In this document: positions 1,097 through 8,092 of the stretch, piece after piece | How positions within the stretch are numbered: the first letter of the stretch is position 1 | How the letters are laid out: every line of letters starts with the position of its first letter | Notes under the pieces: generated by a model | Told to the model about the DNA's origin: nothing | Database searches by the model: none | Seen by the model: only the letters and a program-made list of their open reading frames with translations | Position numbers and translations under genes: made by a program | Source of the DNA: Monosiga brevicollis MX1 | Lineage: Eukaryota; Opisthokonta; Choanoflagellata; Craspedida; Salpingoecidae | DNA: 64,000 nucleotides | Direction: 5' to 3' | Assembly: GCF_000002865.3 (NCBI RefSeq) | Contig: NW_001865040.1 | Coordinates: forward strand, 2,081,226 to 2,145,225

Positions 1097-4000
1097 ATGC
1101 TGCGCTTGGCTTTGCTCGCCGCTCTGGCCGCCGTTGCCTTGGGTCAGTAGTAGTGTCTTTCGCCCCTTCGTCTCCGGCGTTGGTTTTGGTAGAGTGACGG
1201 GCTTGTGACTGCCGCCGTGCCCCACCGCGCGCGTGGTGTTTCTTGTCGCCTGTTGGCTGTGGTTTTCTTCTCGACGTGTCCCCCTTTTTTCCCCTTGTTC
1301 TGCTGCCGGCTCCGGCCCGATAGCCGTCCTGTGTCTGCGGGGGATTTTGTGCTGTTTGGCAACCGCGATCTAAATTCCCCTTTCTGTGTTGTGCGCATGG
1401 CTACATCTCTTTTTCTCACCATACGATCGCCTGCCCTTCCAACATGCTATCATCTCAGGCCGTGAGAAGATTGTGATTTCCCAGACATCGTTTACCATTG
1501 ACAAGGATTCCAACGCCACGGTCAACTTGCGTCTGGTCGAGCCCATCATCTGTCCCCCCGACCATGAGGGTTCTTGCACCGTTGCCGTTCAATTCACCAA
1601 CCCCGACACCAACCGTTTCTCCGTGAGCCCTTGTGTTGTCGAATGGACCCAAGACGAGTGGAACGAGGTCAAGCTTGTTCGAAGTAAGCACACTTCTCTT
1701 GGTGTACACGGTGCCCAGTCAATACCACCAGGGAAAGCCCATGCATGTGTGTACAAAACCAACTGACACGCTTCAATCGCCTTCCCCTGTGCTTCCTTTT
1801 TTCTCGCGTGTTGTCTCCTAGTTTGGGCTCTTGAGAACTTTGTTGATGAGCCTGGAATTAGTGAGACGTTCAAGACCGAGCCTGCCGTCTCCAACTCTGT
1901 CTTTTACAGCGGCTTTGACGCTCGTGATGTGACTGTCACCACCCGTGCCCGCCCCTCGGGCCACTGCTCCGGCACCGGTAAGCAATGTCACTCCTCACCA
2001 AACAACCGACTCTAGGGTTGCTCGGATGCTGCTATCGATCATCGTGCCCTTGCTCATCGAATCGCTTGCCCGCCCGTGCGAACAGGCGATCCTCATTACA
2101 CCACCTTTGACGGCAAGTACTGGCACATTTACGATGCTGGACGCTACGTCTTTTACGCCAACCGCAACCCAGCCGCGCCTCGTCAAGATTTCGAGGTCCA
2201 GGTTGCCACTCTGAGCTACCCTGCCCGTCACTGCGGTTTCGCCGCTCGGGAGGGTAACGACATCTTCTATGTGTACGCCTGCTCTGGCCGAATCACCTAC
2301 GACCTCATTTGCGGTTCCAAGGAATGCCAAGATGGTCCCTACCCCAAGGTTGGCACTAACGGCGGCCGCTCGGGCACCTACTCGGTCACCTTCAAGTCGG
2401 GCCGTCGCGTTTGGGCCACCGTCTCTGGTCGCTACGCGAACATGTACGCCACCGCCCCCGGTCGCGACTACCAGTCTGGTACTGTCGGTGTTTGCGGTAA
2501 CTTCAACGGCAACTCGGGTGATGATGCTCCCATGTACAAGGTGACCTCAAACTACAAGGCCAACCTTTTCCCCTCTCAAGTGCCCACCACCAACCTCTTC
2601 AACTGGCGCCCCTCATCCATCTGGGATTATGAAGAGGGACCCTCTGTCGAGACTTGTGCCTACACCCCCACTGAATTTGTTCGCCCTCTGCTCTCCAGCC
2701 CCGATGTGGAGGACGTGACCGATCTCCTCAAGAACGTTCGCGTCGTTGATGACAGCGATGTTAACTTTGACCTGGATCTCGATGACTTTGTCTCCGCCAA
2801 TGAGACCATGGATGAAACTACCGCTCGCCAACTCTGCCAGGCTGCCTTTGACGCCAGCCCCGCTGTCACTGCTTGTGACAACCTCCTTGGTTCCCTCCTC
2901 AATGTCCCCGTCTTTGTCGACGGCTGCGTCGAGGATCTTTCCATGACCGCTGATGAGACATTTATCGATGACGCTATCGACCAAATGTCCGCCCGTTGCG
3001 CCAACCTTGCCGAGTCTAACACTTCCACCTGGGAGACGGACAACAACGGCGACCGTGTTCCCAGCTCCGACGTGGCCAATGCTCTGTGCCCCAACAGCTG
3101 CAGCGGGCATGGTGCTTGCAACAACGCCAAGTGCGTCTGTGACTCTGGCTTCTCTGGCCGCGACTGCTCGGTCGACAAGTCGTCCGCACCCGTCATCACC
3201 TCGCTCTCCACCACGACCTGCAACACCAAGGCGGCCGCGTCCTGCGCCTCGGAGATTTCTGTCTTCGGCAGCAACTTTTGGAACGCCGAAAACCTCACCT
3301 GCCGCTACAAGGTGATTGCGAGCCCCGCAGTTGCGTCCGACAACGTGCTCATGGTCGGCCAGTCCGCCTCGCGCAGCGCTTTCTTCCTCGGCTCGAGTGA
3401 AGTGATTTGCCAGCTTCCTCCTCGCTCCACTCTCGTGCCCGTTGGCCTCCAGGGTGACCTCGTGACCATTGAGATCTCCGTGCGCACCACCGACTCGATC
3501 GTCAGCGAAGCCAGTCTTCCCTTCACGTTCTACGACGGCGTGTGCTCCGCCTGTGCCAATGCCACGACTTGCGCTCCGAATCCCGACTCGTGCAACATTG
3601 ATGGCGTCTGCGTCTTGGAGGGTACCCACGAAGCCAGCAACGTCTGCCGTGTTTGCGTGCCCGAGCAAAGCACCACCAGCTGGTCATACGACTACACCCA
3701 TGCCGCCGATTGTGGTCCCGACTTTAAGCAAGACTCGTATTCAACGACTCTCACTGGCTCGTACGAGGCTGGTGACACCATCTTCACGTTTGATGCGGAC
3801 AACGCCAACCTGCAGGATGATCCCAACTACAACCTCGAGTTCACCATGACCGCCGGTAACGAAACCATCTTCAGCGTGACCACCGATGGTCGTGTCGTGG
3901 CCAACACTGCCTTTGCTGTCAATGATCTTCCCTACGAGTTCCAGAACCTCGTTGGTGTGCAAGCCGTCCTGAACGGCCAGCATCCCACGGCTCGCACTGT

Positions 4001-7000
4001 CGTCTTTGACATTGTCTCTTCTAACCGCGCCCCCATCCTGAACGAAACCTACACCTTCAACGTGACTGAGGATACCCCCGTCGGTACCGTCATCGGCACC
4101 ATTGTGGCCCACGACCCCGATGAGGCTGGCTCCCTCCAGTACGAGTGGTACTCGCAGGTCTCGGGTGAGGCTGGCGTGCTCCTCATTGACGAGTCGACCG
4201 GTGTCATCACTGTTGGCCAGTCTTTGGATTACGAGCGTGTTAGCTCTTACCTCCTCCTCGTCAGCGTGCGTGACGGTGGTCTGCAGCACATGGCCTCGGT
4301 CCACATTTTTGTCGGTGACGTGAACGAAGCTCCCACTGACGTGCTCATCTCTAACAATGTCGTTGCCGAGAACCAGCCCATCGGCACTGTCGTGGCCAAT
4401 CTGACTGCCGAGGATCAGGATGCCGGTGACTCCCACACCTTTTCCGTCAGTGGTACCGATGCCGCTTACTTCCAGGTGGTTGGCGCGACCCTTCAGACGG
4501 CCCAGGAGCTTGACTACGAAGCTCTGCTTGCGGCTGGCAAGAACCCTCTGGCCATCACGATCACCGCCACCGATGCCGGGGGTCTCACTTTGACCAAGGC
4601 CTTTGACATCACCGTCCAGGACGTCAACGAGGCCCCTTACAACATTCAGCTGTCTCAGACCGAGTTTTTGGAGAACCTCACCAACGCTGCCCTGGCCACC
4701 GTGACCGTTCAGGACCAGGATGCCGACCAAACTGTCACCTGCACCATTGTTCAGGAGAGCACTCCCACCTTTGAGCTGCTCGACATGAAGCTTTACGCCC
4801 TGCCCGGCCAGCAGCTCGACCACGAGACCAACCCCTCCATCGAGCTGACCATTGGCTGTGCTGATGACGGCACTCCCATGAAGTATGCCACGGCTACCTT
4901 CACCATCACCGTCCTCGATGCCTTTGACATGCCCGGCCATTTCACCATTGAGCAGCCTGAGACCATCTTTGAGAATGCGACCATCGGTACGGTCGTTGGT
5001 ACCGTCGTGGCCGTTGACCAGGATGATGACTCGACCGACTTTGAGCTCTCGGTTGTGTCCGACTATGTCGAAGCTGCCGGCCCCACCTCATGCACCAAGG
5101 CCGACGCCGCGGCCCCGACCATCTGCCGCCTGGACATTCGTTTGACTTCGCTGCTCGACTATGAGGGCACCGAGGTTGCCGGTCGCCAGGCTTTGAGCGT
5201 CATTGCCACCCTGGTCCACAAGGGCGAGACAGTTCAGTCTGAGGGCACCGTCTACCTCGAGTTTGAGGACCTGAACGAGCTGCCCACGGGCGTCAGCTGG
5301 CGCACGGGTGGCACCGTTGAGGAGAACCTCGCTTTGGGCGGTGTCATTGGCACCATCAGCGCCCAAGATCCTGACCAAGGCCAGACGCACACCTTCAGCC
5401 TGGCGTCGCACCAGGACCGCTTCACGCTCTCCAACGACGCGTCGGGCATGTATGCCACCATTCGCCTTTCCCAGACAGCCGCCTCTCCCCTCAACTACGA
5501 TTCAGAGCCCTCCATTGAGCTCTCCGTTGTGGTTTTGGACAGCGGCAACCCCCCGCGCTCCATTACCACCTCAATCACCATCACGGTTGAGAACCAGCCC
5601 GTCACCGTCATGTTCCAGGGCACCAATGGCCCCTCGGATTCGTTGACCGTCTCAGAGAGCACTTCCGTTGGTACCGTCGTTGGTAAGTTTGTGCTCGAGG
5701 GCAACGATAATCAGGCCGCCACTTACACGGTTCAGTTCGCCGATGACGATCGTCGCCGCGCTTCCGAGATCTTCTCCATCCAGGGTCTGAACCTGGTGCT
5801 GAGCTCGCCTCTTGATGCCGAGGAGGTGCAGACGCAGTCGCTTAACGTTGTTGCCGTCGAGACGATTGGTTCCGAGGTCAACTACTACGCGGCGCAGCAG
5901 CTGATCATTAACGTCCAGAACGAGGATGAGGCACCCGTGTTTGGCTCGAGCTCCTACACTGCTACCGTCGACACCACAACGGCCAGCGCTGGTGATTTGG
6001 TTGATGTGTCGCCGGTCCTTGTGGCTTCAGACCCCGAGGGTGCTGCCCTTACCTTCTCCATGGCTTCCTCCTCGAGCCAAGTGATGCAAACCTACTTCCA
6101 GGTCTCCACCACAACCAGCGGTACCTTTGAGCTCAGCGTCACTCAGAACCTGGTCGATGCCGACATTGCCGCAGATACTTATAACTTGGACGTGCAGGCC
6201 GAGGATGCCACGGGCCACATCAGCACCCAGCGCGTAGTTGTTACCCTCACCGATGGCACCACCGATCCCAGTGGCGCTCAGTCCACGGCTGCCTCCAACA
6301 AGATGGGCACTGGTGCCGTTGCCGGCATTGTGATTGGCCTTCTTGTCCTCCTCGTCCTGATTGCCTTCCTGGTGCTGGTCGTCCTTCGCAAGCGCCAGAA
6401 CGACAGCGTCTTTGTTGACTCGGAAAAGGGCAAGGGCAGCCACTACGACAACCCTTCGTTCGGCACCACCTATGCTACTCCCGGCAGTCTGCCCGTGGGC
6501 TTTGTGCCTGGCGTCAGCAACCCTCTGTACGAGTGGTATCAGCCCGAGATGACTCGTCAGGACTGCTCCTCGGAGCTTGCCACTGCCGCTCCCGGCACTT
6601 TCTTGGTGCGTGACAGCAAGGCTACTCCCGGATGGCACATTCTTGGCGTCAAGACTGAGAACGATGTGCTGCATGAGAAGATTCGCGCCACGGATGATGG
6701 CATGTATCAGCTGTTGCCCTCTTCGGGCCCAGCGCACGAGCAGCCCCGCTTTGGCGACCTGCCCTCGCTTATTAACCACTACGGCTCACGTCAGACTGGC
6801 ATGCACTATGCTCTCAACGTCAACAGCGTCAGCAACCCCATGTATGCCATGTCCGCCCAGTCGGACGGCCTGTATGGCGGTGTGGCGCTGCCCAACGATC
6901 GCTATGCCCCTGCAGTGCCTCTGAAGGAGGCCCACGTGGCCCAGGTTGAGCAGCTGGCTGCTACGGACGACATCTACTCCAACACGCGCGATGCCCAGAA

Positions 7001-7019
7001 CGCGCTGAGCCATGCCTAA
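1097..7019 (+). CDS. transmembrane cadherin with vWD, EGF, IPT-like and cytoplasmic SH2 domains
   Basis: Four exons (1097-1142, 1459-1683, 1822-1977, 2086-7019) close in frame to 1786 residues. The first exon encodes a hydrophobic signal peptide (MLRLALLAALAAVALG). A von Willebrand factor D domain begins near residue 143 (GDPHYTTFDGKYWHIYD). An EGF-like repeat lies near 476-505 (CSGHGACNNAKCVC), followed by an IPT/TIG-like stretch to about 600 and a Cys-rich segment. About seven cadherin repeats span roughly 790-1527, marked by DVNEAP, DLNELP and NEDEAP linkers. A single transmembrane helix sits near 1551-1575. The cytoplasmic tail holds an SH2 domain near 1624-1720 with the FLVRDS phosphotyrosine-pocket motif, flanked by NPLY and NPMY tyrosine motifs and followed by further tyrosines. 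Cadherins with SH2 domains are known from choanoflagellates. A role in linking adhesion or prey capture to tyrosine kinase signalling is inference. Almost the whole protein comes from one 4.9 kb exon. Confidence 0.93.
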
Positions 7020-8092
7020 GTTTGGTTCTGAAACCAGGCTCATCTGGTAATTGTTGTGCTTTATTGTTGCTCGTTTTTGTTTGATCGCATTTTTCTTCCT
7101 TCATCATGTGGACACTACGCGATACTCAAGCCTCTGATATCGAACTCTGTCTCCTACGCACACGTTGACCCGCGTCTTCGTTGAGAGCTTAGGCTTGAGC
7201 TTGTGTCCACAATTGTGCTCGTGTCATGCCATGCCACGACTGTTTGAAGGCGAATTTTCTTTTCCTGTTTAACGTGGTCGCTTCACATGGGTTGCGGTTA
7301 TAACCTTCGTCCCATTATCTGAAACCGGTCGTCGTCATTCCGAGTCCATTTGTTCTTTTCTTTTCGTGTGTTTGTCCCGATGTTGTCTGCTTCTCTTCGC
7401 TGGCTATTCGAAGAAGTGGCGCACCACTGCCTCTTTTATGCAGCGGACCTTGTTGCGCTTGCATCCTGTCGGGTACAACGTATTTTAGTTAACGAATTTT
7501 TTTTCTTTTAATTTTCTTTCAAGGGCGGCTTGTGCGCCGACTCCCACCGGCTCCTGCACCTTCATCAACGCGTCACGTGTCACCCATCTCCGTTATCTGA
7601 CGGGTGGGTGTTCCGGATCCGCTTTTGTTCGTGCAAGGACAAGCACTTCACTCGTGCATGCTGTGCGTGTGGCCGTTAGCGAAGAGTTGTGTTTCTTTGC
7701 TTTTCGGTATTTTTCTCGAGTGACATACTTGGCTCAACTCGTTTTCGCGTGGTCTTCATTGCTTGAAGATTATCACACGAAGAAGGGTGGCCTATGTCGG
7801 GTGGTTGTTGGTTCTTAACCGCCTCAAACCCTTTTGTGCCGTGATGGATTTTTGTATTTCTTTTGTCAACCGTCGTTTTGTTCACACTGTTTCAAACGAC
7901 TTGTTCTCCGTGCTGGCCTTTTACAATTGATAAAAAAAAGCCAATGATATTTGAGATAACAACATATGACGTAGACTCAGGGCTATTTGCAACCAAAAAA
8001 AAATGATGAGAACCAATAATAATACCGTGTCGTCATGTGGACATGTATCGGGAGAGTTGTTCAACGAAAACATGAGAGAAAACAACAGCGTT
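7020..8092. other. convergent intergenic region between cadherin and POC1
   Basis: No coding potential was recognised in this stretch of about 1.07 kb. It is T-rich on the plus strand, for example around 7497-7520, and should contain the 3' UTRs of the two converging genes. No repeat, RNA gene or mobile element is visible. Confidence 0.5.

Follow-up and report, generated by a model that had tools for sequence, protein, structure and literature searches.

Does the cadherin tail of a single-celled relative of animals carry docking sites for phosphotyrosine-reading proteins on both sides of its own SH2 domain, and what would such sites do there? The question is raised by a gene of the choanoflagellate Monosiga brevicollis MX1 in the window analysed here, the whole stretch of 64,000 nucleotides from contig NW_001865040.1 (positions 2,081,226 to 2,145,225, forward strand). 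The gene encodes a predicted transmembrane cadherin with an SH2 domain in its cytoplasmic tail. The original prediction placed VSNPLY just before this domain and VSNPMY just after it, and read the pair as a means of self-capture or as a duplicated docking site. The translation of 6519–6845 indeed opens with NPLYEWY and closes with SVSNPMY, and the Pfam SH2 match lies between them; this interval, given for the motif pair, ends correctly, and its start omits the V and S of VSNPLY, which begins at 6513. The downstream tyrosines named with the pair, in DGLYGG and DDIYSN, are also present, and a third motif, YDNPSF, had been overlooked (Table 1). After the transmembrane helix and an RKR stretch, the tail reads in order YDNPSF, FVPGVSNPLYEWY, the directly adjoining SH2 domain, NSVSNPMYAMS, DGLYGG, DRYAP and DDIYSN. 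We favour the reading, at a probability of about 0.55, that this tail is a phosphotyrosine hub in which predicted NPxY sites around the SH2 domain dock PTB adaptors or PTB-kinases. The motifs look selected, and they are likely docking sites because they are kept in two paralogues, a receptor on contig 54 has a similar layout and the kinase HMTK1 binds FTNPVpYAT.

Conservation of the motifs in three paralogues

The 39.5 Mb assembly (57 contigs) contains two paralogues of the tail, L002 and L003, which are 99 and 49% identical to it; conservation is described here for these three paralogues of one species. A check for motif loss, proposed for relatives of the gene and run on the paralogues of this genome, found both NPxY motifs, and all three NPxY/NPxF cores of the tail, kept in 2/2. 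First, L002 is a dispersed duplicate on contig 34 (L061/L062, matching window positions 1454–7023) with cadherin and SH2 matches within one frame. It aligns as two similar pieces with 79 and 92% DNA identity, and the similarity does not continue into the gene flanks, where the matches are short and resemble repeats. The transmembrane helix plus tail is identical at 235 of 238 residues (98.7%), compared with 92.2% for the ectodomain, and the ratio of non-synonymous to synonymous divergence (dN/dS) is 0.035 and 0.173, respectively. Since the synonymous divergence (dS) is also lower in the tail than in the ectodomain (0.159 versus 0.265), local gene conversion between this close pair is possible. 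Second, the gene of L003 on contig 30, which has cadherin and SH2 domains, is identical at 473 of 1340 ectodomain residues and at 113 of 230 residues of the helix plus tail, with a dS of about 1.4–1.5. Its split is much older than the duplication that gave L002.

The motifs can be followed through this older split. All 13 residues of the block that contains VSNPLY are identical in L003, and the nine codons of VSNPLYEWY differ by synonymous changes only. VSNPMY is replaced by FSNPMY, YDNPSF by FDNPTF and DDIYSN by EDIYTN. All eight positions of the NPLY and NPMY cores are identical, compared with 51 of the 114 non-SH2 cytoplasmic positions (shuffle P about 0.001). Both NPxY cores are invariant across the three paralogues, which have NPLYEWY, SNPMYA, DNPxF and DIYxN in common. 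Among the 11 tail tyrosines, Y76, Y79, Y135, Y160, Y181, Y191 and Y225 are kept in L003, and Y48, Y57, Y169 and Y201 are lost. Genome-wide, NPxY-[E/D]-WY and SNPMYA give three matches each, namely the window, L002 and L003 genes, against none and one in the reversed control, respectively. The combination of cadherin, transmembrane helix, SH2 and SNPMYA was found in these three genes. In collections of viral and prokaryote contigs, the pattern matched 7 and 121 times, respectively, and no match was confirmed as a relative, as expected for a eukaryotic gene.

When the 210-residue tail was shuffled 200,000 times, at least two NPxY motifs arose in 0.08% of the shuffles, at least two SNPxY in one and at least two VSNPxY in none; these figures are too favourable, because the motif was picked after being seen. 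The background is nine NPxY in 67 open frames (30,761 residues), a set that includes the cadherin tails of the family and possibly frames that are not genes. Segmental duplication was considered as the origin of the twin motifs and rejected: their DNA matches at 17 of 19 bases, with no extension beyond the 19. The idea of a duplicated docking site therefore survives in part. Docking agrees with the conservation, the layout and the HMTK1 data, and two similar motifs are present; a copied segment is what has to be given up.

The SH2 domain and its flanks, here and elsewhere in the genome

The SH2 match (PF00017) covers residues 1507–1589 of the frame from 2016, with a family E value of 8.5e-11 and 42.2 bits against a cut-off of 21. 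Its FLVRDS and LHEK segments align with FLAR and THIK of SHP2. We take the FLVR arginine and the strand-D histidine of SH2 domains to coordinate phosphotyrosine; judged by its sequence, the domain retains both, and binding itself is predicted. The SH2 domains of SHP2, Src/Fyn and Abl belong to the same domain family and are the best solved relatives by sequence; the window domain differs from them in that it belongs to a receptor tail and is flanked by NPxY at either end.

Because the Pfam domain starts at 6534, the tyrosine of the first motif lies two residues ahead of the first SH2 residue, a tryptophan. VSNPMY starts at tail residue 176, approximately 3–6 residues past the end of most Src/Fyn alignments (169–172), and two Src alignments extend to residue 179, into the motif. 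This closeness is the sole point in favour of autoinhibition in cis, in which NPLY or NPMY would fold back into its own SH2 domain, and which we regard as extremely unlikely. The chain ends of an SH2 domain generally lie together and face away from the phosphotyrosine pocket. With this geometry and a gap of one residue, binding of NPLY in cis is improbable, and the gap of approximately 3–6 residues ahead of VSNPMY also speaks against it. The two NPxY motifs would therefore lie near each other, which favours a joint docking surface and disfavours capture in cis. DDIYSN, approximately 50 residues past the domain, could reach the pocket and is a better candidate for a self-ligand than NPLY; we assume that this motif is a candidate kinase substrate and an SH2 ligand of the pYxN type.

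Since the NPxY motifs would be neighbours on the side that points away from the pocket, a structural clasp is still a live rival. FVPGVSNPLY and VSNPMY would then cap the SH2 domain where its chain ends meet, and would be conserved for the stability of the fold and not for docking. In keeping with this, the first motif belongs to an invariant 13-residue block that runs into the domain, VSNPMY follows closely on most Src/Fyn alignments and is partly covered by two of them, and several Src, Fyn and Abl matches start at tail positions 52–56, ahead of the domain. We nevertheless consider a clasp unlikely, as the related YDNPSF/FDNPTF lies near the membrane, approximately 24 residues ahead of the SH2 domain, the contig 54 receptor has its FDNPTF 13 residues ahead of its first SH2 domain, and NPx[YF] is absent from the read flanks of 48 of 50 SH2 matches surveyed (see below). 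Capture in trans, in which a phosphorylated NPxY or DDIYSN would bind the SH2 domain of a neighbouring tail and produce reciprocal clustering as in STAT proteins, is distinctly unlikely in our estimate. It could use the FLVRDS arginine and LHEK histidine aligned with SHP2, and DDIYSN/EDIYTN is both conserved and sufficiently distant from the domain. However, the residue following the conserved histidine is a glutamate, and the ligand of this SH2 domain is not predictable from sequence. Furthermore, the conserved NPx precedes the tyrosine at Y76 and Y181, which is the side read by PTB domains (PMC3507883).

The Src, Fyn and Abl profile matches mentioned above fall within 6456–6818 and begin approximately 25 residues ahead of the SH2 domain. 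In these kinases, an SH3 domain presumably ends at that point, and GFVPG might, speculatively, be the remnant of a lost SH3 end. An AlphaFold model of the tail alone was unusable and informs none of the readings (mean predicted local distance difference test score 31.8, predicted template modelling score 0.19).

The flanks of other SH2 domains were compared across the genome, in which an E threshold of 1 yields 145 SH2 matches. For 50 of them (the 30 best and 20 weaker ones), up to 60 in-frame residues were read on each side (4157 residues in total); the sample is non-random, several of its matches come from the same protein and the flanks are interrupted by introns. NPx[YF] occurs in the flanks of two, the L003 gene and the contig 54 receptor, and in 0/48 of the others. 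This receptor (L057, minus strand, overlapping L012) comprises a TNFR-like stretch (E 0.009, under the Pfam cut-off), a transmembrane helix, FDNPTF, two SH2 domains and VGNPGY. Among the 50, a clear in-frame membrane helix upstream is likewise confined to these two, the best 20-residue hydropathy being 3.2–3.4 in them and at most 1.9 in the other 48. When the window gene and L002 are included, the motif is found in 4/4 transmembrane SH2 proteins versus 0/48 other matches, a contrast that was noticed before testing and for which an exact test treats the paralogues as independent; counted as two families, P is about 0.0008. NPVYA is not in excess genome-wide (eight matches versus 12 in the control), and N-P-[codon with middle T]-Y-E-[FY] gives no genome-wide match and one in the control.

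NPx[YF] follows the helix within 200 residues in four of six automatically listed membrane-helix segments; L067, which belongs to the L011 gene, and L030 are without it, and none was seen by eye in the short tail of L018. The short membrane tails of L023 and L028, found through likeness around the membrane helix, have YANPTY and YANPTF, respectively, near the membrane; that of L028 also has a C-terminal FDNPYY, possibly across an intron. The tail of L011, retrieved through its membrane helix, has many PALPxKP repeats and a WW-like stretch at its end (by eye).

HMTK1 and the predicted docking hub

A possible reader of the motifs is encoded in the same genome. Contig 27 contains exact matches to 18 bases of one printed HMTK1 primer and to 33 bases of the other (PMC3082566); they share a strand, are separated by 1.5 kb and enclose a PTB-family match. 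The 18-mer has one further match, on contig 42. The PTB family (PF00640) gives 15 genome matches at E 0.01 or better, and a review counts 31 PTB domains in M. brevicollis and states that PTB specificity in general comes mostly from the residues before the tyrosine, most often NPxY (PMC3507883). The related (F/Y)xNPx(Y/F) is described as a general sorting signal (PMC11228867). PTB3 of HMTK1 is nearest to GULP and Numb, and its binding to TNFTNPVYATG is strongly phosphotyrosine-dependent (PMC3082566, 2011). A substrate linked to NFTNPVpYATG has a Km of 33 µM compared with 450 µM for the Phe control, roughly a 15-fold difference (PMC3082566). DDIYSN is similar to the EEEIY substrate used for HMTK1 in that study.

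The same paper names an SH2-cadherin with FSNPMYA (Joint Genome Institute gene model 11339) as a candidate HMTK1 partner (PMC3082566). FSNPMYA is encoded at one locus of the genome, the L003 gene on contig 30; docking at the second motif is thus a printed hypothesis for a paralogue, and one of the two motifs has had a proposed partner in print since 2011 (PMC3082566). Like the window protein, the published cadherin is transmembrane, combines cadherin and SH2 domains and has the same second motif. The sections of that paper considered here make no mention of NPLY ahead of the SH2 domain, of a juxtamembrane DNPxF or of the near-identical pair formed by the window gene and L002. The present analysis adds that the latter two genes share the second motif, that a further and even better conserved NPxY adjoins the SH2 domain at its opposite end, that a third, juxtamembrane motif exists and that DDIYSN is a conserved acidic-IY site. 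In the literature searched, PMC3082566 is the only account of NPxY in an SH2-cadherin, and neither the flanking pair nor the third motif was found there; the genome publication and the founding papers on cadherins (2008 and 2012) may mention either. A second candidate partner is an SH2 protein with NPVYA (PMC3082566). On the minus strand of contig 21 (212049–212062), NPVYA precedes, by 867 bases and in phase, an SH2 match that lies in an 877-residue frame; this is perhaps the protein meant.

Several known systems resemble parts of this arrangement. In nematodes, the tail of the engulfment receptor CED-1 contains FQNPLY, and the receptor uses its NPXY to bind CED-6/GULP, a PTB protein, and tails of the LDL-receptor family have paired NPxY read by PTB adaptors (PMC11228867). 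CED-1 shares with the window cadherin a transmembrane topology, NPLY in the tail and a PTB reader of the GULP type; homology between the two is not known. To our knowledge, CED-1 has neither a cadherin ectodomain nor an SH2 domain of its own, and LDL-receptor-family tails have no SH2 domain between two NPxY. Among choanoflagellates, a Choanoeca perplexa protein combines a protocadherin domain, a transmembrane helix and SH2 (PMC6040629), and phosphotyrosine signalling has been detected in S. rosetta (PMC11984502). In M. brevicollis, the feeding collar is where two cadherins, MBCDH1 and MBCDH2, are localized (PMC4265756, PMC4012994). The near-identical window gene and L002 likewise form a pair, and equating them with MBCDH1 and MBCDH2 is only a guess.

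With its motif pair around the SH2 domain, the tail looks like a signalling hub. If so, the protein, perhaps a cadherin of the feeding collar, would use VSNPLY, VSNPMY and YDNPSF as docking sites for PTB-domain proteins, both adaptors of endocytosis and PTB-kinases, HMTK1 among them. First, engagement of a ligand or prey would cluster the cadherin. Tyrosine kinases would then phosphorylate the tail, with DDIYSN as the most kinase-like site. Next, a PTB protein would dock on NPxY; at the second motif, this protein could be HMTK1, which would dock in a phosphotyrosine-dependent manner and then phosphorylate nearby tyrosines. Finally, the SH2 domain would read the phosphotyrosine of a partner or a neighbouring tail. 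A more specific version, a pre-animal feeding-collar amplifier in which the second NPxY recruits HMTK1, HMTK1 phosphorylates the same tail and the SH2 domain between the NPxY motifs binds the product when it is on a neighbouring tail, is rather unlikely. If true, it would couple PTB and SH2 reading, possibly in a mutually exclusive manner, at one spot and would represent an ancestral, cadherin-based way of clustering receptors and of signalling engulfment. We consider it very unlikely that the motifs are a constitutive endocytic signal only, in which unphosphorylated NPxY would sort the cadherin via PTB-type adaptors with no link to SH2. YDNPSF and FDNPTF would suit this role, as they end in a phenylalanine, which is not phosphorylatable. 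However, NPLY and NPMY keep tyrosine and not phenylalanine in 3/3 paralogues, and the HMTK1 PTB is strongly phosphotyrosine-dependent on the most similar ligand (PMC3082566).

Several points weigh against a docking hub. The residue five positions before the tyrosine is V, and not F/Y, in VSNPLY of 3/3 paralogues and in VSNPMY of the window gene and L002; F/Y is present at this position in YDNPSF and in FSNPMY of L003. [FY]DNPx[FY] is not enriched genome-wide (nine matches versus seven in the reversed control), so the case is built on where the motifs lie and how well they are kept, and not on how often they occur. Four of the nine matches are in SH2 receptors, namely the three cadherins and the contig 54 receptor, and a fifth follows the transmembrane helix of L028 within one open frame, possibly across an intron. 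In mammalian cells, no HMTK1 activity could be detected; the PTB of HMTK1 bound pYEEI as well, and its binding to some array peptides did not depend on phosphotyrosine (PMC3082566). A PTB domain may be crowded at both motifs, which are close to a folded domain. The conservation comes from three paralogues of a single species, two of which may share gene conversion. The motifs, their conservation and an SH2 domain with the phosphotyrosine-coordinating arginine and histidine are features of the sequence itself, and the binding of HMTK1 to FTNPVpYAT is published (PMC3082566); we infer all binding at the window tail, phosphorylation of the tail and a role in feeding. Together, three paralogue-conserved motifs and a kinase of the same genome that reads a similar peptide provide a direct and cheap test of pre-animal cadherin signalling. 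If an NPxY code of the GULP engulfment type were linked to such a cadherin, this would suggest that engulfment signalling predates adhesion.

Gene model and domain architecture

The predicted cadherin has 1786 residues in four exons on the plus strand (GT-AG splice model). Six splice choices keep the frame open, and the five others give 1779–1789 residues. The motifs are placed on the cytosolic side by a signal-peptide-like start, a single hydrophobic transmembrane stretch and RKR, followed by the motifs (by eye).

Table 1. Features of the window cadherin gene and of its cytoplasmic tail
Feature	Position	Strand	Remarks	Basis
Exon 1	1097..1142	+	Start codon and signal-peptide-like MLRLALLAALAAVALG	Splice model; signal peptide by eye
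Exon 2	1459..1683	+	Start of ectodomain	Splice model
Exon 3	1822..1977	+	Alternative donor possible 9 bases downstream	Splice model
Exon 4 (last)	2086..7019	+	VWD, EGF-like, TIG-like, five cadherin stretches, transmembrane helix, SH2 tail, stop	Frame 2016–7019, Pfam, splice model
Transmembrane helix, then RKR	6324..6386	+	Hydrophobic GIVIGLLVLLVLIAFLVLVVL	Translation, by eye, without a transmembrane predictor
YDNPSF, juxtamembrane (F/Y)xNPx(Y/F) motif	6444..6461	+	FDNPTF in L003	
VSNPLY, first NPxY motif	6513..6530	+	Inside FVPGVSNPLYEWY; one residue ahead of SH2	
SH2 domain	6534..6782	+	Most Src/Fyn alignments extend to tail residues 169–172, ~6809–6818	Pfam limits
VSNPMY, second NPxY motif	6828..6845	+	FSNPMY in L003	
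DGLYGG	6864..6881	+	Tyr codon 6873; Tyr kept in L003 (NGHYA)	
DDIYSN, acidic-IY-x-N site	6966..6983	+	Tyr codon 6975; EDIYTN in L003	

The gene belongs to the cadherin superfamily; the catenin-binding cytoplasmic family, by which classical cadherins are recognized, is not among the 13 families that Pfam gives with an E value of 0.1 or less. The cadherin, VWD, EGF-like and SH2 matches are above the Pfam cut-offs, and the TIG-like match is weak and below its cut-off. The five cadherin stretches have a family E value of 2.8e-46.
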